From Oceanobacillus sp. FSL K6-2867 (GTDB lineage: Bacteria; Bacillota; Bacilli; Bacillales; Amphibacillaceae): DNA of 64,000 bases. How positions within the stretch are numbered: the stretch's first letter is position 1; each line of letters starts with the position of its first letter. The position numbers and the translations under genes were made by a program. The stretch lies in the NCBI RefSeq assembly GCF_037963145.1, contig NZ_CP150144.1:1922001-1986000 (forward strand). Reading direction: 5' to 3'. This document shows positions 952-10,460 of the stretch, one piece after another. The notes below the pieces were generated by a model that was not told the origin of the DNA, did not search any database, and saw only the letters and a program-made list of their open reading frames with translations.

Positions 952-2109
952 TCATTTCACTTCAATTGAACCGTTCATCAAACGTGGTAGAAGTAAATCA
1001 CGTTGTTTGATGAGATTTTGATTTTGTTGATTTAAATAATCCTTTTTCATATTTAAATCTCTAAAAATATCATTAAATTTATGTAACACAGTTTCATTTG
1101 GTAATAACAATTTTAACCTCTTCAAATTAGTTATTGTTAAAGCACTTTGTGATGTACCTATTGTATACATCTGTAAGCTCCGATACCCCATATCAGAATT
1201 TAGCCAATAATATAAATAATATGAGAGTACTGGGTTTGAACTACTCTGAATCCATGTTAGGTTCCCATCCTTAAAATAAAATGGATTATCGTCAGTAATA
1301 AGCAGTGGGATGCCTATTGTTCCAACAGATGTAATTAAAATATCATTTCTTTGAGGTACACCGAATTTCTTTTTAAATTCCTCGTACTTATTATCCGATA
1401 TATGTAATAGTTCTGATACTGCTTCACCATTTGATAGTTTTATAACCTCTTTAGATCGGTAGAATGGAATTCCAGATTCTACATAATCGGAACTGTATAC
1501 TCTTTTGCTGGAAGAAACATTAAATATATCGCCTATTTTTTTTACTTCCCATCCTTCAGGTATTCCTTTAACAAACTTCGTGTTTTCATATCCTGGAAAT
1601 CTCATTCGCACAAACCATTCTTTATAAATCTCTTCCGCAGCTTGTTCTAAAACTTCAATTCTACGATTGTTATTTTCAATTAGTTTATCGTATGTAGAAA
1701 GGACATTTGCTATTTTTTCCTGTTTCTTTATATCAGGGATTTTTATTTTTAACAAGCCGATATGATTTCTGTTTAATGTTGGAACTCCTGCTCCAGAATT
1801 AAACTGCTCTAAACCCATTGTCTGCAAAAAGTAATATATAAAATTAGTATTATTTCCTTTAGAATCTTTTACATATAAAGTTGTGTTCAATGGCCAAGCC
1901 TTTTTGTTCACAATTTGCACCTTGCCTATGGAACCCGATCGTCCCACCGTTACTACGGGGGGATCAACTTTATATTCGTTATGATAGCTACGAATATTAG
2001 TAGAAGCAATAACTGGATAATTTCCTTCCCTGCTTTTATCATGGGGTAAGTCGTATCCCCTTTTTAAAGTAACAAAGTCTTTTAACTTGATTGTTTTCCA
2101 CTCACTCAT
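952..2109 (-). CDS. hsdS: Type I restriction-modification specificity subunit HsdS
   Basis: HsdS sets the DNA target of the HsdM methyltransferase and the HsdRMS nuclease. The 385-residue protein has the usual two-fold layout: TRD1 (about 1-135), a central conserved helix around IENNNRRIEVLEQAAEEIY, TRD2 starting near EGWEVKKIGDIF, and a C-terminal helix (NQNLIKQRDLLLPRLMNG). I start it at the ATG at 2109, which overlaps the hsdM stop by 8 bases; a TTG two codons upstream is the alternative. The overlap suggests translational coupling to hsdM. Both TRDs look full length, so the target should be bipartite, but the recognition sequence cannot be read from the protein. Confidence 0.93.
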   Translation of the reverse strand: MSEWKTIKLKDFVTLKRGYDLPHDKSREGNYPVIASTNIRSYHNEYKVDPPVVTVGRSGSIGKVQIVNKKAWPLNTTLYVKDSKGNNTNFIYYFLQTMGLEQFNSGAGVPTLNRNHIGLLKIKIPDIKKQEKIANVLSTYDKLIENNNRRIEVLEQAAEEIYKEWFVRMRFPGYENTKFVKGIPEGWEVKKIGDIFNVSSSKRVYSSDYVESGIPFYRSKEVIKLSNGEAVSELLHISDNKYEEFKKKFGVPQRNDILITSVGTIGIPLLITDDNPFYFKDGNLTWIQSSSNPVLSYYLYYWLNSDMGYRSLQMYTIGTSQSALTITNLKRLKLLLPNETVLHKFNDIFRDLNMKKDYLNQQNQNLIKQRDLLLPRLMNGSIEVK

Positions 2110-3793
2110 ACTCAATCACCAAACTATCCAAATTCTTTTCAATCTGTTCTTCCAAGTCTTTTGCTTCTTCATTTAATTGTTTGAATTCATCATTTAAATC
2201 TGATAGTTTTTCCTTATACTCATCCGCTGCCATGCCATCATCTTCAATGACAACACCTACATACCTTCCAGGATTTAGTGAATAATCTTGATCGATAATT
2301 CCATCTTCACCATCAAGCTGAGCCACTTTACATAAACCGATGACATCTTGATATTTTCCATCAGGAAAACGTTCTAGCAACCAATCAATTTGTTTCTGGA
2401 AATATTTCTTATCTTCTTCTGAGTCTGCATTATCGCTATTCATCTCATATTCCTTAATCAGTGAATAAAAACTTTCACTATCTTCTTCATATAAACGGTT
2501 AATAATGGCTAGGTTCTTTATTTGCTCGTCAGAAAACTCTCTTAATGCGCGATCGACTTGAGTAAATATATTGCGTGCATCAATAAATAGTATTTCATCT
2601 TTCTTTTTCTTTTGTTTATCAAAGAACCATAATGTAGCTGGTAAAGTTACAGTACTAAACATATTTGATGGAAGTGCAACCATTTGAGAAACAATACCAT
2701 CTTCTATTAATGCTTTGCGGATTTCCTTTTCACTATGTCCTGCATCTGAAGCGGAGTTCGCCATAACGAGTGATGCTTTTCCTGTTTCATTTAATGCAGT
2801 GGCAAATTGATTAATCCATAAGTAATTTCCATTTGGTACTTTTGGCTTTTTACCTTTAGTTTGAGGTACACCATATGTATTAAACCTTTGTTGATCCTTT
2901 ACTAAATCCAATTCAACATTGTCAACATTAAATGGCGGATTCGCTAATACGTAATCAAAATTACCAAATGAATCATATGGATCGGCATAATATGAATTTG
3001 CCTCTGTTACTTCCCCACGGATATTATTTAAAAATAAGTTCATTTTTGCTAGTTTAACTGTTTCACCTGTGCGTTCTACTCCATACGCTCTTAAGTTTAA
3101 AGGTGTTCCGCCATTCTTTACTTTATGTTCTTGGGCATAATGAGCTGTTTGAACAAACATACCACCAGAACCACAAGCAGGGTCTAACACCTTTCCTTCC
3201 ATTGGTTGCAAAACTTCAACCATATAACGTACAACACTTCTAGGTGTGTAGAACTCTCCTCCACCTTGGCCTTCAGCTAATGCAAATTCTCCTAGAAAAT
3301 ATTCATAGACTTCGCCAAAGATATCATTTTGGGAATCTGTTGGAATGTCATTAAAGTTTCTCAGTAGTCTGTTTAAAATTTTGTTGTTATCTTCAGCATT
3401 TAAATTATGATAATTATCTTTTGGTAATACGCCTACAAATTCTGGAGAATATTCTTCTATACCTTCCATTGCATCCTTAACTTTATTGGCTATATCTTCC
3501 TCTTCGTTTAAATTAAGTAAATATGAAAAACGCGATTGTTCTGGTAAATAAAACCCGCATTTTTCAATTGCTATCTCTTCAATTCTTTTTTCACGTCTTC
3601 CACCTTTTAACGCTTCATACTCTTGCATAATTTCAGATTCATATTGTTCGTATTTTGCATCTGCGAACTTTAAAAAGATTAGTCCAAGTACGGGAATTGA
3701 GTAAGATGAAGCTTTTAAACCTGAATTTGCCCGTAATTCATCTGCAGTATTCCATAAGTTTTTCTTTAAGTTATTTAGTCTCTCTTGATTCAA
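2102..3793 (-). CDS. hsdM: Type I restriction-modification DNA methyltransferase HsdM
   Basis: HsdM is the N6-adenine methyltransferase of the type I complex and protects host DNA. It has 563 residues: an HsdM N-terminal helical domain (about 1-140), the GEFYTPR motif near 179-185, the SAM-binding motif I DPACGSGG at 204-211 and the catalytic NPPF at 285-288 (N6-adenine class). The C-terminus is a long charged helix that would contact HsdS. The start is a TTG at 3793, eight bases after AGGAGG. It is the first gene of the hsd operon, 180 bp downstream of radC and on the same strand, with a terminator between them, so it probably has its own promoter. All catalytic residues are present, so the methylase half appears functional. 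Confidence 0.95.
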   Translation of the reverse strand: MNQERLNNLKKNLWNTADELRANSGLKASSYSIPVLGLIFLKFADAKYEQYESEIMQEYEALKGGRREKRIEEIAIEKCGFYLPEQSRFSYLLNLNEEEDIANKVKDAMEGIEEYSPEFVGVLPKDNYHNLNAEDNNKILNRLLRNFNDIPTDSQNDIFGEVYEYFLGEFALAEGQGGGEFYTPRSVVRYMVEVLQPMEGKVLDPACGSGGMFVQTAHYAQEHKVKNGGTPLNLRAYGVERTGETVKLAKMNLFLNNIRGEVTEANSYYADPYDSFGNFDYVLANPPFNVDNVELDLVKDQQRFNTYGVPQTKGKKPKVPNGNYLWINQFATALNETGKASLVMANSASDAGHSEKEIRKALIEDGIVSQMVALPSNMFSTVTLPATLWFFDKQKKKKDEILFIDARNIFTQVDRALREFSDEQIKNLAIINRLYEEDSESFYSLIKEYEMNSDNADSEEDKKYFQKQIDWLLERFPDGKYQDVIGLCKVAQLDGEDGIIDQDYSLNPGRYVGVVIEDDGMAADEYKEKLSDLNDEFKQLNEEAKDLEEQIEKNLDSLVIEYE

Positions 3794-3953: not shown

Positions 3954-3975
3954 AAGGGAGTTGTTTCTCTCCCTT
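3954..3975 (-). terminator. Rho-independent terminator of the radC-like gene
   Basis: The minus strand reads AAGGGAG, an 8-base loop, CTCCCTT, then a run of T. The hairpin overlaps the stop codon of the radC-like gene. It should separate radC transcription from the hsd operon that follows. Confidence 0.75.
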
Positions 3976-4348
3976 AGATGTAACCTCTTTCTTTCAAGCT
4001 AGTGAAACTATCATCACCGTTTACTACTAAATGGTCAAGCACCTCAATCCCTAGAAGCTTTCCTGCTTCTACTAATCTTTTTGTAACGTTTATATCTTCT
4101 ATTGATGGTGTAATATCACCACTTGGATGCTGATGCGCAACAATGACACTTGCTGCATTATTGAGTATTGCTGATTTAAACACCTCTCGTGAATGTACAA
4201 TCGAGGAATTCAACAAACCAACATGACAGCGATGAACCGCAATGACGTTATTTTTCGTATTTAAACACATAACAAAGAATACTTCACGATCATCACGACC
4301 TATAAAACGAGTTGCAATCTTTGCTCCATCTTTCGGACATTTTACCAT
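3974..4348 (-). CDS. radC: Short RadC-like JAMM/MPN+ domain protein
   Basis: This protein has only the C-terminal JAMM domain of RadC (124 residues from the ATG at 4348, behind GGAGGG; a TTG 16 codons upstream lacks a ribosome binding site). The complete metal-site pattern is present: upstream Glu55, then H72-x-H74-x7-S82-x2-D85 in HQHPSGDITPSIED. The N-terminal helix-hairpin-helix part of chromosomal RadC (about 225 residues in all) is missing. Such stand-alone forms are common in plasmids, phages and integrative elements, and their role is not established; a DNA-repair role for RadC itself has been disputed. Its position between the hsd operon and a conjugative module fits mobile-element cargo. 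Confidence 0.88.
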   Translation of the reverse strand: MVKCPKDGAKIATRFIGRDDREVFFVMCLNTKNNVIAVHRCHVGLLNSSIVHSREVFKSAILNNAASVIVAHQHPSGDITPSIEDINVTKRLVEAGKLLGIEVLDHLVVNGDDSFTSLKERGYI

Positions 4349-4722
4349 GTAATTTACACCCTCCTCAGCTTCACATAATTTGTTCGATACGTACAATCTC
4401 TAAAATGGTTTCCATATTGATCAACTTTTCTAATAATTTTTGACCTTTTTGGTCACCATTCAATCAATCTCCGCATCGATTTTTGTCAAGTGGCGTAAGT
4501 AGCGATAGCATCAAGTGATTTGTAGATATGATGAGTAAAGCCCAATAAATTAGAGTACGTTTAAAGCGTTAATTGCTTTATTACGCACTCTTATCCACTT
4601 GGCTTTGCCATTATATCCGAAGAACGAAGACCCTTTACATAATCGATAATGTGTCCATACTCTACAGACGCATTAGGAGATTACAATTAGGGGAGCTGAA
4701 AAGGAGAAACGTGTAATACTTG
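4349..4722. other. Non-coding spacer without recognised content
   Basis: This 374-bp stretch upstream of the radC-like gene holds no open frame I can support, no terminator with a clear T-run and no recognisable tRNA or att repeat of the rpsI end. A weak palindrome (GACCTTTTTGGTC) lies near 4441. Confidence 0.5.
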
Positions 4723-5481
4723 TTACTCTTCCGTTACATCTTTATAGTAATAAAAACTTTCGGGAGAGCGACTTGCTTCAACTTCTTTAAAATTGTAATT
4801 TTCTATAAGTTCATTTTCATTATTTATTATTTCTTCTAGCTCGTTAATTTTTTTCAATTCTTCTTTCTCTATCTCTTCAATTTCTGTCTGATATTGAATG
4901 GAATATTGCACACTCATTTTGTGATTTTCTTCTTCAACAGCCTCTTCTATCATTTCAATTACTTCTACAGCTTTTTGCATAATAGCTATTTTTTCTTTAA
5001 TCATATCAAGTGAATCGCTTTTAAATAACTCAAAGAATAACAGTTGGTCTTTACTGGAAATTATTCCGTTGGACTTTGCTATTTGAAATTTTGCTAGTCC
5101 TAGTGGTATATATGAGTCTTTATAATAAATTGCCCTTTTTTTAAGGCGATTCATTAATAATTCATTTACACGCACATCCTTTAACATTTTAATAATATCG
5201 TCTTTCTTATATCTTGTTCCCTGTGTAGAACCTTCTATTTTTATAATTGTATCTCTTTCTATATCTGTGATTGGAAAAGCATTGTTTATTTCTTTATATT
5301 TTCGATCAATATAGTTCTTGATATATTCACGCATCTTATCTGCATTTATTATATGATGATTATTTCCATTTTCATCTAATAACCGTAATACTTCTCGTGA
5401 GAAATCATCCTTGTCATAACCTATTTCTAAATGTACTAATCTCAACACTTCTTCCATAGCCACCATATCCGTATTTTTCAT
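4723..5481 (-). CDS. Unrecognised 252-residue coiled-coil protein
   Basis: I do not recognise this family. The start is an ATG at 5481 behind a GGAGAGG site. The N-terminal two thirds (about 1-160) look globular and helical, with many charged residues. From about 160 to 235 the sequence is strongly Glu/Lys/Ile-rich with heptad-like spacing, consistent with a coiled coil. There is no signal peptide, membrane segment, zinc motif or nucleotide-binding loop. It is transcribed away from the conjugation module and towards radC and hsd. It could be an element regulator, an anti-defence or defence accessory protein, or a replication accessory. No phage-type repressor (ImmR-like) is visible elsewhere in the module, which leaves the regulator role open. 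Function is not assigned. Confidence 0.7.
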   Translation of the reverse strand: MKNTDMVAMEEVLRLVHLEIGYDKDDFSREVLRLLDENGNNHHIINADKMREYIKNYIDRKYKEINNAFPITDIERDTIIKIEGSTQGTRYKKDDIIKMLKDVRVNELLMNRLKKRAIYYKDSYIPLGLAKFQIAKSNGIISSKDQLLFFELFKSDSLDMIKEKIAIMQKAVEVIEMIEEAVEEENHKMSVQYSIQYQTEIEEIEKEELKKINELEEIINNENELIENYNFKEVEASRSPESFYYYKDVTEE

Positions 5482-5666: not shown

Positions 5667-6023
5667 ATGAAAAAACTAAGAGGATTCAACAAATTCGACT
5701 GCGAAGCATTTTTCAAGGACAAAGATGTGCGTGTGATGGCTCATGAAGCATGGAATGAATACGACGATGGAAAAATCACAAAACAGCTAGGTACGAAATA
5801 TAAATGTGTGATAGCCACAGACAGGACAGAATACCCAGGCAAAGATGTTGAACCAGATCTTAATGCTGGAGAAAAAATTGACGTTAAAGTACCTCAACAA
5901 CCAAAGGATTATAAGAAGTTCAGTCGTATCACGTTTGTGAATCCAACCGCAAGTGTATACGGAACGTTCCAATCAGAGCTCAGCGTTAAAGCAGATGATG
6001 TGGAAATTACTCAGCCTAAGTAA
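5667..6023 (+). CDS. Small conjugative-element protein, possibly HelP/DUF961-like
   Basis: This is a 118-residue soluble protein with its start behind GAAGGAG. It sits immediately upstream of the coupling protein gene, the place held in ICEBs1 by helP (ydcP) and in Tn916 by the orf23/orf22 DUF961 genes. Those proteins are thought to be OB-fold, single-strand-binding helicase processivity factors used during rolling-circle replication. The C-terminal pattern here (ITFVNPTASVYG...VKADDVE) loosely resembles the end of that family, but the match is from memory and weak. There is no catalytic motif. The family assignment is inference from position and size; a different element-specific accessory is possible. 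Confidence 0.5.
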   Translation: MKKLRGFNKFDCEAFFKDKDVRVMAHEAWNEYDDGKITKQLGTKYKCVIATDRTEYPGKDVEPDLNAGEKIDVKVPQQPKDYKKFSRITFVNPTASVYGTFQSELSVKADDVEITQPK

Positions 6024-6076
6024 AGGACAAGGGACAATTAGTTCCCTTTCTTTCATTACCATTTCAATGCATGTGA

Positions 6077-6096
6077 CCGCCCCTAATAAGGGGCGG
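6077..6096. other. GC-rich perfect palindrome upstream of the coupling protein gene
   Basis: A 7-bp stem (CCGCCCC/GGGGCGG) closes a 6-base loop TAATAA, 26 bp before the coupling protein start. No T-run follows on the plus strand, so it is not a standard terminator. It could regulate translation or act as a single-strand DNA structure during transfer. Confidence 0.5.
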
Positions 6097-6122
6097 AATC
6101 ACAATATTAGGATGTGAATTAC

Positions 6123-7433
6123 ATGAAGAAGACATACCGAATGCAACGTGGGTTTATTTCGTTTCTAATCATCGGATTATTTCTCGTTTTATGGTTTTTC
6201 TTTTACAAACTGTATCCATTGATTGCAGAACAAATAGCGATATTACAGCTTCCACATGTTGAGTCACATATCTTCTTGGTTCCTGTTGGTTTGATGGTAA
6301 TCGGCTTATTTGTTGCTTGGTCATTTCGCAATAAACTATGGTTTGGACCACTTTTTTCCGTTCATTACTATTCGATGATAAAACGATTGAGAAGGCATAT
6401 CAAAGATGCAAGATTTGAAGATGAACGTGAGTTTGATAATCGTTTAGTTAGATTACCGAACATCAAAATTGTATTTGATGATAATCGCGCTAGAAAATCA
6501 GGAAAAGTGTTCATTCAAAACTCCATTAAATTCGACAAGAAATTAGAAGACATGAGAATTGATTCAGCGTTAAATGGATATTTGAGTGAACGCCAGTATT
6601 TGTCTAGAGACCGTAATTGGTACAGTTATGAATTTTATGCTGTAGATTCACAAAAACAACTTGAGATTAAATCAGCAAGTGACTTGATTGAATGGTCAAA
6701 CAAGACAGCAGACGATTACGCATTACGCTTGGATGAGCGTGCAACTGTACCGTTTCACCATATGGGATTAAGTGGACAAACAGGTAGCGGTAAGTCCCTG
6801 CTTATTCAAATTCTAGTTGAACAAGTATTAGCGAAAAGTGTCAATCATGAGTTATTCATTATTGATCCAAAGCGTACAGATGTATACCAAATGGCTAAAC
6901 GTACCATTGGTGATAAGCGAACAGCCGACAAGACAAATGCAATTGAATTGATTAAACAATTTCATGAACGAATGAAAGAACGGCAAGATGAGTTGCAAGA
7001 TTATTTCATATCGAATCGCAACAAAACGTATAAGGACGCTGGTCTACCAGCTTTAATTCTGCTTATAGATGAGTTCGGAGCATTGAGAGAATCATGGAGG
7101 ACTTTGGCGAAAAAGGAACGTGATGAAGTCGATAGCATACTGTCTGACGTTGCATTCATGGGTCGTCAACTAGGGTGTATCTTATGGGTAGCGACACAAC
7201 AAATGAATGCTCAAACAATGCCAACAGCGATTAGAGAACAGCTCGTCTTGAAGATTGCTTTAGGTGATAGCGATGAGCAAACCTATAGAACTTTATTTTC
7301 ATCTGGTGTGGATATACCACCAGTCGAGTTTACTGCTGGTCAAGGAATTTACAGTTATCCAGGGCTTGCAAGTGCTGACAATCCACGCTTGTTGACGGTT
7401 CCTTACTGTAGCTTTTTGAATGACAGTACTTAG
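6123..7433 (+). CDS. FtsK/SpoIIIE-type coupling protein (ConQ/TcpA/Tn916 Orf21 class)
   Basis: This membrane ATPase would bring the relaxase-DNA complex to a secretion channel, as ConQ does in ICEBs1. With the ATG at 6123 (AGGA site about 10 bases upstream) it has 436 residues. A GTG three codons earlier is too close to the ribosome binding site. Two membrane helices lie at about 11-37 and 49-66. Walker A is GQTGSGKS at 218-225 and Walker B is LILLIDEFG at 311-319. Length fits ConQ (about 480) and Orf21 (about 460). It lies between the small HelP-like gene and the relaxase, the same order as in ICEBs1. Because no other secretion genes are visible, it may dock to a channel supplied by a co-resident conjugative element. 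Confidence 0.88.
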   Translation: MKKTYRMQRGFISFLIIGLFLVLWFFFYKLYPLIAEQIAILQLPHVESHIFLVPVGLMVIGLFVAWSFRNKLWFGPLFSVHYYSMIKRLRRHIKDARFEDEREFDNRLVRLPNIKIVFDDNRARKSGKVFIQNSIKFDKKLEDMRIDSALNGYLSERQYLSRDRNWYSYEFYAVDSQKQLEIKSASDLIEWSNKTADDYALRLDERATVPFHHMGLSGQTGSGKSLLIQILVEQVLAKSVNHELFIIDPKRTDVYQMAKRTIGDKRTADKTNAIELIKQFHERMKERQDELQDYFISNRNKTYKDAGLPALILLIDEFGALRESWRTLAKKERDEVDSILSDVAFMGRQLGCILWVATQQMNAQTMPTAIREQLVLKIALGDSDEQTYRTLFSSGVDIPPVEFTAGQGIYSYPGLASADNPRLLTVPYCSFLNDST

Positions 7434-7555
7434 CTTTTCCTTAAGGGAGACGGCACAGAGAGCGGAAGGGGACCCGCCGTTTAGGCGGGGAAGGTTCCGC
7501 TTCGTGCTTTACGCCTTTAGGAAAGCTGGCGTCTTGGTAATCACGCCAGCTCCGG
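7432..7555 (+). other. Candidate origin of transfer / double-strand origin between coupling protein and relaxase genes
   Basis: The spacer between the coupling protein and relaxase genes, where ICEBs1 and Tn916 place oriT, is packed with inverted repeats. AGCGGAA (7461-7467) pairs with TTCCGCT (7495-7501) and encloses CCCGCC/GGCGGG (7473-7478, 7484-7489). A second perfect 9-bp stem, AGCTGGCGT (7524-7532) with ACGCCAGCT (7543-7551), closes a 10-base loop CTTGGTAATC. An outer imperfect pair joins AGCTTTTCCTTAAGG (7432-7446) to CCTTTAGGAAAGCT (7514-7527). Position and structure support an oriT that also works as a replication origin. The nick site is not known to me. Confidence 0.6.
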
Positions 7556-7651
7556 TAGGTAGCAAAAACACCCATCAAGACCGTCATAATGGGCTTTTAC
7601 ACTTAAAAAACTTTCTCTAAAGTTTTCCGAACGTAAAGGAGTGAACAGAAC

Positions 7652-8809
7652 ATGATTAAACCCGATATTGACCAATTCACACTTGTATTACAAGCAACAG
7701 GCGTGTTTGACTTTGATGAATGGCGTGACTGGGTAGCAAAAAATTTAATAAGTACATTCTTGGTGAAATCTAAGATGCATAAACTATTCGACAATTTCGA
7801 TGAAGCAGATGTTAAATTACCAGAAGGATATACAGTAGGATATTCATTTAACAATGCACCATTTTACTTTTGTATTGCTTATCATGAAGCATTTACAAAA
7901 ATGGGCGTAATTGTAAAATTCAGTGCATACGCATGGCATGAGTATCGGAAACGATATGAAGCAGAATTTAATGAGCCTATTCATTTACACACCTTTTTTA
8001 AGACGATTAATGCTGATGAGTATTCCTTTAGACTTTCACGAATTGACATGTGTTGCGACTTTCTTAATGAAGGTATTGATATTGCTAAATTAAAACGTTC
8101 AATTGAAGAAAAAAGGACTGAATTGCGCTATGGGAAGTACTAATAAAAGTTATCTACAAAAGGTTATTGATGACAACAAAGAAAAGCCATACAAAAGAAA
8201 CAACTCGAAAGTGTCCGACGTATCGAAAGACTTTCAGGCACAAACATTGTATATCGGAGCAAAAAGCAGAAATACAAAAGTGCATTTACGCATTTATGAC
8301 AAAAAAGAGGAACAACTATCATGAAACATATGCGCCATGTAGCTAAAGAAGTAGATGACTGGACGCGCGTCGAAGCAGAGTATTCTGGTGATTATGCGCA
8401 TCAATTAACGGAAGCGATAAAACAATGTAATACGGATGAACAACTCAAAAATTTAATTGTGAGTTCCATAATTGATCGATACATGTTCTTTTACGTTAAC
8501 TCGAATCGTCCACATAAACTTACGAAATTAATGCTCGATTTGTTGGACCAGAAAGATTTTCACTTTGAGTCACCTTCACCACGAAACAACTTATTAGAGC
8601 AGTCAATAGACCATTTAATTAAAGGGTCTGGACTTCTTCCGACATTGTGGAAGGTTGAGCAGATATGGGGCGATGGCACAGCACTGGAATTAATAGATTA
8701 TTTCTATAAACATTTCTACGAAGAATTCGAACCCAATGATGACCATATTTCTTGGGTGAATAAATACAAGGCACTTTATCTATTAGAAGGTAAGCCTTGG
8801 GAAGGATGA
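7652..8809 (+). pseudogene. NicK/MobT-like Rep_trans relaxase, split by two frame changes
   Basis: Three consecutive frames together make one relaxase of about 385 residues, close to the length of ICEBs1 NicK and MobT relaxases. Part 1 (7652-8143) has the RLSRIDMCCDF strand with the metal-site Asp of Rep_trans enzymes. Part 2 (about 8103-8324, other frame) has the active-tyrosine motif TLYIG...VHLRIYDK. Part 3 (8321-8809, first frame again) carries the conserved W-T-R-x-E-x-E segment. The reading moves by +1 near the GGG at 8132-8134 (RYG followed by STNKS) and back near 8315-8322, where TGA and ATG overlap. The relaxase would nick oriT and start rolling-circle transfer. Decay, an assembly error or genuine separate expression are all possible; I favour a disrupted gene. 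Confidence 0.8.
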
Positions 8810-8816
8810 TATTTAC

Positions 8817-9014
8817 ATGAATAAGCCAAAAGTAAGAGAAAGTATAAAGAATGTGATTGAAATTGTTGACTCTGTTCTACAAGGTGAAAGCACAATCAAC
8901 AGAAGGACTAGTGATTCAGATTATCAAAAACACAACTATACGCCTGAGGCTCTTTTAGCAAGCATAAAAGATAGTGCTGAGAGTGCAATGAAAGGGTTAG
9001 ACGAATATGAATAA
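8817..9014 (+). CDS. Small hypothetical protein downstream of the relaxase
   Basis: This 65-residue acidic, soluble protein starts 7 bp after the relaxase frame ends, behind a GGAAGG site, so it is probably co-translated. It has no recognisable motif; the sequence suggests two helices (about 5-22 and 44-62). Small ORFs in this position are common between relaxase and excision genes in integrative elements. I do not recognise the family. Confidence 0.6.
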   Translation: MNKPKVRESIKNVIEIVDSVLQGESTINRRTSDSDYQKHNYTPEALLASIKDSAESAMKGLDEYE

Positions 9015-9040
9015 AAATAATGAAAAGGAGATGGGGCTAA

Positions 9041-9238
9041 ATGAGCATCGTTAAGAACGCAAAGAACTATCCATATCTATTAACTAGAGAACAAGCATCA
9101 GATTTCTTAGGGATAGACCCAAAATCATTTGATAAATACATCCGACCACACGATGAACTAGAACGCTTCATGATCGGCAAGCATGAACGATACACCATGA
9201 AATCCTTAGTGCACTTTATCGAAGAACACTCCGTTTAA
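9041..9238 (+). CDS. Excisionase-like small DNA-binding protein (helix-turn-helix, MerR/HTH_17 type)
   Basis: This 65-residue protein starts behind a strong AAAAGGAG site. The middle, LTREQASDFLGIDPKSFDKYI, has the form of a winged helix-turn-helix of the excisionase/HTH_17 class, followed by a basic hairpin (GKHERYTMKSL) that could be the wing. It lies 93 bp upstream of the integrase on the same strand, the usual xis-int arrangement. It probably binds the attachment sites and steers the integrase towards excision, and may also regulate int. A simple transcriptional regulator role cannot be excluded. Confidence 0.75.
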   Translation: MSIVKNAKNYPYLLTREQASDFLGIDPKSFDKYIRPHDELERFMIGKHERYTMKSLVHFIEEHSV

Positions 9239-9331
9239 AATGCTGTCAGTTGATAAGATGCTAGTTTAGAAATACAATATAGATGTATTCAACTAGCGTC
9301 TATCTGCTATTTTTATGAGAGGGATGATAGT

Positions 9332-10372
9332 ATGGCTAGTATAGTAAAAAGAGGAAAATCATACAGAGCACAAGTTTCATTGTACAAACACGGTCAACAT
9401 AAAAGGATTTCGCAAACCTTTCCAACAAAGAAAGAAGCAAATCTCTGGGCTTTAGAAATGGAATTAGCCAAAGGGGAAGGTAAAGAACTTGCCCAAAGAA
9501 CAACAACATTTGCTGACTTCTTTGAGAATTGGATTTACCTTGTAAAGGTCAATGATGTTAAAGAAACGACATTCCAGAATTATGTTCGTACTTCAGGCAT
9601 TATTAGAAATTTATTTCAGGATATCCAATTAAAAGATTTGAATGATATTGTTGTTCAGAAGAAGATTGACGAATATGCGAAAACACATTCACGAAAAACA
9701 ACACATGAAGTACTTCTTAAAATTAAAACATCTCTACGTGATGCATATGCTCGTGGCTACATTGTGAATGATTTTGCACCATTAGTAAAGACACGGGGTG
9801 TGAATCCACCAAAACGAAACAGGGCTTTGTCTATTACAGATTTTAAAAAGCTCCGCACTTACGTTTTACTGCATCCAGAAGATGAATTCAACGTCCTTGT
9901 ATTACTAGCATTAGAAACAGGTATGCGACGTGGAGAACTACTAGCAATACGACCAGAGAGTCTTTATGAATACGGAATAAAAGTTAGACATTCCATCAGC
10001 CCTACCTCTGACGATACTTCATTAAAGACACAAAATGCAAAACGTGATGTTTCTATAAACAAAGAAGTGTATGAGCTTATTCGTAGGATTCCTGTTAAAG
10101 AGAATGGTTATATTTTTAGTTTTGGGGGATTTAAACAATCTGAACAGTTGACTGAACTACTAGAGAAACTTGACATTAAAAAAACAACGTTTCACGGTTT
10201 GAGAGATACACATGCATCATTTTTGTTTGCCCAAGATATTGATATTGCATATGTATCAAAACGATTAGGACACATAAATATCCAAACAACACAAAATTAT
10301 TATCTGGAATTAATGCCAGAAAAAAAGCACCAGCAGGATGCCGATGCTTTAAATCTGTTAAGTGCTTTGTAA
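9332..10372 (+). CDS. int: Tyrosine recombinase integrase, Tn916/ICE type
   Basis: The enzyme catalyses integration and excision of the element. It has 346 residues: an N-terminal AP2-like arm-binding region (GKSYRAQVSLY, about 8-45), a SAM-like core-binding domain (about 57-150) and the catalytic domain. The active-site set is complete: Arg199 (TGMRRGE), Lys232 region (LKTQNAKRDV), His288-x-x-Arg291 (HGLRD), His314 (LGHINI) and Tyr323 (TTQNYY). The start follows a GAGAGGGATGA site. The gene converges on rpsI, with only 68 bp between the two stop codons, the signature of an integrase sitting beside its own attachment site at the 3' end of a conserved gene. It appears intact. Confidence 0.95.
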   Translation: MASIVKRGKSYRAQVSLYKHGQHKRISQTFPTKKEANLWALEMELAKGEGKELAQRTTTFADFFENWIYLVKVNDVKETTFQNYVRTSGIIRNLFQDIQLKDLNDIVVQKKIDEYAKTHSRKTTHEVLLKIKTSLRDAYARGYIVNDFAPLVKTRGVNPPKRNRALSITDFKKLRTYVLLHPEDEFNVLVLLALETGMRRGELLAIRPESLYEYGIKVRHSISPTSDDTSLKTQNAKRDVSINKEVYELIRRIPVKENGYIFSFGGFKQSEQLTELLEKLDIKKTTFHGLRDTHASFLFAQDIDIAYVSKRLGHINIQTTQNYYLELMPEKKHQQDADALNLLSAL

Positions 10373-10460
10373 GATTAACGTTAATTTGCACCAACTTGCA
10401 CCCAAAAACCTTTGGAAACGTTGGTATATCAACAAACCTATTAACGTTTTGAGAACTGAG
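10373..10460. other. Right attachment-site region at the 3' end of rpsI (attR candidate)
   Basis: The spacer between int and rpsI holds a 12-bp palindrome ATTAACGTTAAT (10374-10385), the direct repeat TTGCACC twice at 11-bp spacing (near 10386 and 10397), and TTAACGTT again at 10441-10448, overlapping the rpsI stop codon. Repeats of this kind are typical integrase arm and core sites. The matching left copy of the rpsI end was not found in 1-5666, so the core cannot be fixed. Confidence 0.55.

Follow-up and report, generated by a model that had tools for sequence, protein, structure and literature searches.

The question raised by this locus of Oceanobacillus sp. FSL K6-2867 is how a mobile element can make a relaxase from a region that is cut into three open reading frames (ORFs), and what kind of element carries it. 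The locus lies in a stretch of 64,000 nucleotides, called here the window (contig NZ_CP150144.1; G000:C1:1922001-1986000), which belongs to a 4.40-Mb single-contig genome. A sequence-only reading had placed a compact mobilisable element with a single Rep_trans relaxase gene at the 3' end of the ribosomal protein gene rpsI. The homology to Rep_trans holds and the single gene does not, as positions 7652-8809 contain three ORFs in two reading frames, termed rlxA, rlxB, and rlxC (A, B, and C). This three-ORF relaxase is the most unusual feature of the element and a new point of the present analysis, absent from the earlier reading. The relaxase region of the window comprises the following features:

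7461-7501, + strand: inverted repeat with 18-nt arms, 72% complementary, kept among split loci in the alignment.
7524-7551, + strand: oriT-like hairpin with a 9-bp perfect stem and GGTAA in the loop; predicted nic region.
7652-8143, + strand: rlxA, N-terminal part of a Rep_trans relaxase, 163 amino acids (aa), with D7 and D132.
8114-8121, + strand: AGGACTGA, invariant in nine elements; candidate ribosome-binding site of rlxB.
8130-8324, + strand: rlxB, middle part, 64 aa from ATG 8130 in a frame open from 8094, carrying YxKxxE.
8301-8314, + strand: AAAAAAGAGGAACA, longest stretch of the relaxase region without variation across nine elements; candidate ribosome-binding site of rlxC.
8321-8809, + strand: rlxC, C-terminal part, 162 aa, with E18 and an ATGA overlap with rlxB.

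The whole is probably a 15.9-kb integrative and mobilizable defence island with three relaxase chains made by coupled translation. For the wider family, the balance of the evidence leans towards a widespread lineage of Gram-positive elements with an obligate three-subunit rolling-circle nickase, in which no chain would have a complete active site, A and C would supply the metal ligands and a third chain, of only about 64 residues, the DNA-linking tyrosine, and nicking would be licensed by assembly from the coupled operon. Such a nickase would have originated when a contiguous Rep_trans relaxase was split, and each of the two joints is bridged in natural fusions.

The residues D, D, Y-x-K-x-x-E, and E have been tested as catalytic in RelSt3 (PMC6499999), and in a profile alignment the same set is spread over the three ORFs: D7 and D132 on A, YxKxxE on B, and E18 on C. 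Through its contiguous relatives, the window relaxase is homologous over its whole length to MOBT/Rep_trans relaxases. Relaxases of this family (PF02486) are defined as one polypeptide, and there are three ORFs in all 14 split loci that were read. A, B, and C of the window each fall under the Pfam and NCBIfam cut-offs, A and C having no PF02486 match at all, while a contiguous relative scores 62.6 bits and the natural B+C fusion P0065 43.0 bits. A fold comparison pointed to Rep_trans structures, this being a re-examination of a Foldseek ranking and not a search; the sequence search of PDB with a contiguous relaxase gave one chance-level row (E 0.88). A split relaxase, or a relaxase made by programmed frameshift, was not found in the open-access literature, which does not establish its absence from print.

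The same cuts recur in the 14 split loci (the window, L019, L020, L025, L027, L050, L077, L099, L100, L104, L106, L112, L113, and L114). The A to B relation is +1 in all of them, and in 13 the B frame is uninterrupted from an ATG within the Arg-Tyr-Gly codons near the A end; L106 has a stop there, and its C is also broken. B passes to C by ATGA in 10 of the 14 and by GTGA in two (L050 and L104), and in the remaining two (L113 and L114) the relative frame differs and the ORFs overlap by 11 or 8 nt. Each of the three frames is under strong purifying selection. In eight pairs from seven of the 14 loci, with synonymous sites saturated in several pairs, the ratio of non-synonymous to synonymous substitution rates (dN/dS), taken where synonymous sites were unsaturated, was 0.04-0.13 in A, 0.02-0.10 in B, and 0.04-0.09 in C, and the values in shifted frames were mostly above 1 (0.76 to 10).

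Stand-alone parts are also common among protein clusters. A search of 5.8 billion proteins matched 71 clusters for C and 73 for A; since it admits candidates of 0.55-1.75 times the query length and thereby excludes contiguous relaxases, these counts give the number of stand-alone parts, not the split share of the family. Stand-alone C clusters (65/71) have the Glu at residue 7-20, at exactly 18 in 57. Among the A clusters, 64 of the 73 stand alone; in 56 of these the protein runs for exactly 35 residues counted from where the SRxD motif begins, and RYGKY is the ending in 43. Named sources include Bacillus, Listeria, Enterococcus, Streptococcus, Aerococcus, Anaerococcus, and Senegalia, and one A cluster (P0072) represents 375 contigs. 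C occurs at 84.5% identity on four Enterococcus faecium plasmids, and in the one plasmid record inspected A, B, and C are annotated as three hypothetical proteins. In sampled genomes, C-like sequences, contiguous relaxases included, were present in 6/159 at the level of the family, 8/397 of the order, 4/398 of the class, and 1/398 of the phylum; they were also present in 25/247 genomes of a genus taken for Streptococcus, a group formed mostly by contiguous relaxases. In viral_contigs neither A nor C had a confirmed relative, and C had none in phages.

The split forms largely group together in trees. The C tree, made from 24 of the 71 C-type clusters plus the window (P0065 counted as split) and 26 contiguous rows, has a single branch that separates the 25 split rows from the contiguous ones (support 100/98). 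A larger, quick C tree had 37 split rows (window included), one fused, and 33 contiguous rows; it left out P0071 and rows shorter than 140 aa or without the motif, and the split rows were thinned to about every second. In it, the 37 split rows and P0065 grouped with a support of 95 in the SH-like approximate likelihood ratio test (SH-aLRT). P0065 lies inside the split clade and therefore looks like a secondary fusion. The A tree combined the window, 35 of the 73 A-type clusters, and 28 contiguous rows; the A+B fusions P0112 and P0133 grouped in it with 32 split rows (support 97). As judged from these sequences, the relaxase parts occur apart or fused at the same two joints.

Over the 1140-nt relaxase region, compared in nine of the 14 split loci, no invariant stretch is longer than the 14-nt AAAAAAGAGGAACA, just upstream of the C start; two 8-nt invariant runs come next, AGGACTGA upstream of the ATG of B and another within A (7931-7938). 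In B, third positions vary less over the final 11 codons (64% versus 81%).

An oriT-like palindrome had been noted before in the gap between the coupling ATPase gene and rlxA, and that 218-bp gap (7434-7651) does hold inverted repeats, the hairpin among them. In 23/23 loci (14 split and nine contiguous), a GTAR loop closed by a 7-12 bp stem lies 62-101 bp upstream of the relaxase. The motif is present by construction, only GTAR loops having been examined; GTA is, however, also invariant in an independent alignment of 17 loci. The stems vary in sequence yet remain paired, and in mononucleotide shuffles of the window gap a 9-bp stem was reached once in 2000. The nic site of MOBT relaxases is CT'AA in a hairpin loop (PMC9371924), and the cut site here is for that reason only predicted.

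A working order can be proposed for these parts. Int and Xis would excise the island. Coupled translation would yield A, B, and C as three chains, with B starting at ATG 8130 within A and C at the ATGA overlap, and these would assemble into one nickase with an active-site sheet made of strands from all three. The nickase would cut the hairpin just upstream and start rolling-circle DNA processing, and a TcpA-like ATPase would pass the strand to the channel of a resident integrative and conjugative element (ICE).

Several observations weigh against the proposal of three coupled chains. B scores 24.6 bits against PF02486, below the cut-off of 29.6. The run resembling a Shine-Dalgarno sequence lies 12 nt ahead of the ATG of B, a spacing above the usual, and an additional in-frame ATG is present 21 nt upstream of it in three of 10 loci (L027, L099, and L100). 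Where A overlaps B, its third codon positions vary as much (81%) as they do in the body of the gene (83%), so that the A/B joint is not specially conserved apart from the 8-nt run. The hairpin is present with a GTAA loop, and not with CT'AA in the loop of a GC-rich hairpin. The one-clade picture is disturbed by the A-like P0143 and P0144 (the latter a fused A+B), which stand on long branches among the contiguous rows of the A tree and are either truncated or the result of a second independent cut at the B/C joint. P0144 ends shortly past the YDK motif.

The main rival to coupled translation, itself unlikely, is programmed frameshifting. As a control of dosage, ribosomes would shift by +1 at A/B and would either shift by -1 or reinitiate at B/C, giving a full-length relaxase and perhaps short products in addition. 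The constant +1 relation at A/B speaks for such a mechanism, though common descent also accounts for it, and the A-run AAAAAAG lies inside the longest invariant stretch at B/C. The A/B joint, on the other hand, has no A-run common to the aligned loci, and initiation at the ATG is favoured there over a +1 shift. At B/C, initiation at C is preferred to a -1 shift because the start codon of C varies between ATG and GTG, because L113 and L114 use the other relative frame, and because a conserved Glu-Gln near the B end is read in the own frame of B and would be skipped by a -1 shift at the A-run. A single family-wide programmed -1 shift at this joint was rejected on account of the differing frame and the varying start codon.

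It is improbable that the three ORFs encode instead a rolling-circle replication initiator that maintains the excised circle, transfer being left to the relaxase of a helper ICE. Rep_trans proteins do function in plasmid replication, IMESag-rpsI has a MobV relaxase plus a Rep_trans protein (PMC5704250, PMC5357655), and three one-piece ICE relaxases are present in the same genome. The genes come, however, after a TcpA-type coupling gene with the oriT-like hairpin between; the island yielded no second relaxase; and the Rep_trans proteins of IME_oriTs act in transfer (PMC7563843). Roles in replication and in transfer are compatible and can coexist. A decaying relaxase, with two compensating frameshifts or sequencing errors in a disused gene, is suggested by the resemblance of single short frames to a broken gene and by relatives that have truly decayed (e.g., L106 and the truncated L018), but this pseudogene reading was rejected as extremely improbable in view of the identical cuts in 14/14 loci, the purifying selection in three frames, and the stand-alone clusters across many genera.

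The three-chain relaxase sits in an island bounded by a duplicated end of rpsI. The 17-bp TATTAACGTTTTGAGAA occurs twice within the 4.4-Mb genome, at 1916545 and at 1932439 (window 10439), and its reversed pattern, used as a control, not once. As these two sole copies bound the island, its size is 15.9 kb. The rpsI site was thus placed correctly by the sequence-only reading, and the extent, given as 4.8 kb, was too small, the hsd genes and a SIR2-HerA pair being included; the sharing of the island with an hsd system, also proposed there, agrees with the position of the hsd genes between the att sites. The second copy of the rpsI end that was to be sought left of the window is attL, at genome 1916545-1916561 and 5.5 kb from the window edge. 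HerA, SIR2, and most of hsdR make up the portion of the island left of the window; the SIR2 and HerA genes are adjacent (L004) and match the PADLOC models PDLC04089 (4.5e-155) and PDLC04097 (5.3e-276). The remaining features of the island within the window are:

1-934, - strand: hsdR, type I restriction subunit (REase_I 1.1e-167); 5' part of the coding strand, remainder left of the window (L004:7716-10934).
952-2115, - strand: hsdS, specificity subunit (Methylase_S 9.4e-41).
2102-3793, - strand: hsdM, methyltransferase subunit (N6_Mtase 5.9e-77).
3974-4396, - strand: RadC-like JAB-domain protein (PF04002 3e-40).
4723-5481, - strand: 252-aa protein without a Pfam match above cut-off.
5667-6023, + strand: 118-aa protein in the HelP position.
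6114-7433, + strand: TcpA/ConQ-like coupling ATPase (FtsK_SpoIIIE 2.1e-07).
8817-9014, + strand: 65-aa ORF.
9041-9238, + strand: xis-like helix-turn-helix (HTH) protein (PF12728 1.5e-04, below cut-off).
9332-10372, + strand: tyrosine integrase (PF00589 3.9e-14), ending 68 bp from the rpsI stop.
10439-10455, + strand: attR core, identical to attL, spanning the rpsI stop and last codons.

The coupling ATPase, the small HTH protein, and the tyrosine integrase with its distance to rpsI were all named by the earlier reading and are upheld by these matches. Its HelP label for the 118-aa ORF finds no support in Pfam, with no family at E <= 10; DUF961 (PF06125) appeared at E 0.11 in one of five homologues. 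The sole weak match of the 252-aa ORF is to intein splicing (E 0.0034, 17.6 bits against a cut-off of 35.8). A RadC/JAB-domain gene stands beside restriction genes both here and in an E. faecium plasmid copy (L112 5832-6275).

The element is not fixed at this place. In the congeners G018 and G017, the site is empty, the rpsI end joining the attL-side sequence directly (49 bp, 94 and 92%), and an integrase of more than 50% identity is present at rpsI in 3/28 genomes of the genus, the own one included and one being a fragment. Neither of the conditions that would have spoken against the earlier reading, fixation in all related genomes without a duplicated end or a full conjugation gene set just outside, applies. 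In named genomes, related integrase loci were surveyed over the best 80 of 88: a convergent rpsI directly adjoins 52 of them, rpsI stands further on in seven, and the flank examined contains none in the other 21. In Alkalibacterium (L027), 16 bp of its rpsI end are repeated at a distance of about 8.9 kb, on the int side. Virgibacillus alimentarius (L045 8514-11546) has a tandem pair of related integrases beside rpsI (39 and 76% identity to the query), which suggests accretion of elements. The rpsI 3' end (residues 109-130) is duplicated in two further congeners, at G006:C2:39288-39353 and G008:C1:195058-195123, about 13 and 34 kb from rpsI, and other islands with unrelated integrases seem to use the rpsI site there. 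On the conjugative E. faecium plasmid NZ_LR135198.1 (L112 9412-14078), the same module (118-aa-like protein, coupling ATPase, split relaxase, xis, and int) is found without rpsI alongside and adjoins restriction-modification cargo and a JAB-domain protein.

With its own integrase and an att duplication at a specific site, the island is most likely an integrative and mobilizable element (IME) with candidate helpers in the same cell, to judge by its gene content. No secretion or mating-pore genes were found among the island ORFs scanned, as the sequence-only reading had stated for type IV secretion, and TcpC is present only elsewhere in the genome. A full ICE of the ICEBs1/Tn916 superfamily was rejected, a complete conjugation gene set not being found in the island. 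Three TcpC loci elsewhere in the genome each have a VirB4-type AAA_10 ATPase, a TcpA-type ATPase, and a one-piece Rep_trans relaxase. These ICE-like loci (L171, L172, and L173) lie at about 1.218-1.238, 1.248-1.268, and 1.395-1.415 Mb of G000:C1 and are possible helpers. The coupling ATPase of the island is 27-32% identical to their ATPases over the ATPase region.

The proposal of an under-described IME family that borrows another element's channel fits as regards the IME, and is less new than supposed. The use of rpsI as an island site has been published for IMESag-rpsI (PMC5090054) and McRImecD, together with rpsI-linked integrases in Bacillus (PMC5341023; also PMC5090054); integrases of three families are reported at rpsI in streptococci (PMC5357655), and streptococcal IMEs with MobT and TcpA are known (PMC5704250). 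A tyrosine integrase likewise places IMESag-rpsI and McRImecD at the 3' end of rpsI; the former has a MobV relaxase and the latter mecD cargo, whereas the present island carries SIR2-HerA and type I restriction. IME_SsuBM407_tRNAleu, a streptococcal MobT and TcpA IME, likewise has a coupling protein and a Rep_trans relaxase without a channel, and a TcpA helper has been proposed (PMC5704250). The streptococcal elements of this type use different sites, and a split relaxase is not mentioned in the portions of the reports drawn on here (PMC5704250, PMC5357655). ICEs of the ICEBs1/Tn916 superfamily share the order of coupling gene, oriT, and relaxase, and differ from the island in which no secretion genes were found. 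RelSt3 of ICESt3, Orf20 of Tn916, NicK of ICEBs1, and the solved relative RepSTK1 (4CIJ) have the same catalytic set, upstream hairpin, and neighbouring coupling gene; in contrast to these MOBT/Rep_trans relaxases, there are three ORFs here instead of one and the loop is GTAA instead of CT'AA. The window relaxase has no N-terminal HTH domain, as is the case for NicK (PMC9371924).

Relaxases are the basis for recognising and typing mobile elements. A split relaxase is easily taken for three unknown proteins, and with A, B, and C under the Pfam and NCBIfam cut-offs, such elements may therefore be scored as lacking a relaxase. For the defence island, with its SIR2-HerA pair and type I restriction genes, a way of spreading can now be identified. 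Should A, B, and C be made as separate chains, the active site of the nickase would be built from three proteins, and the family would offer a natural system for studying the control of conjugative nicking and which chain accompanies the DNA.

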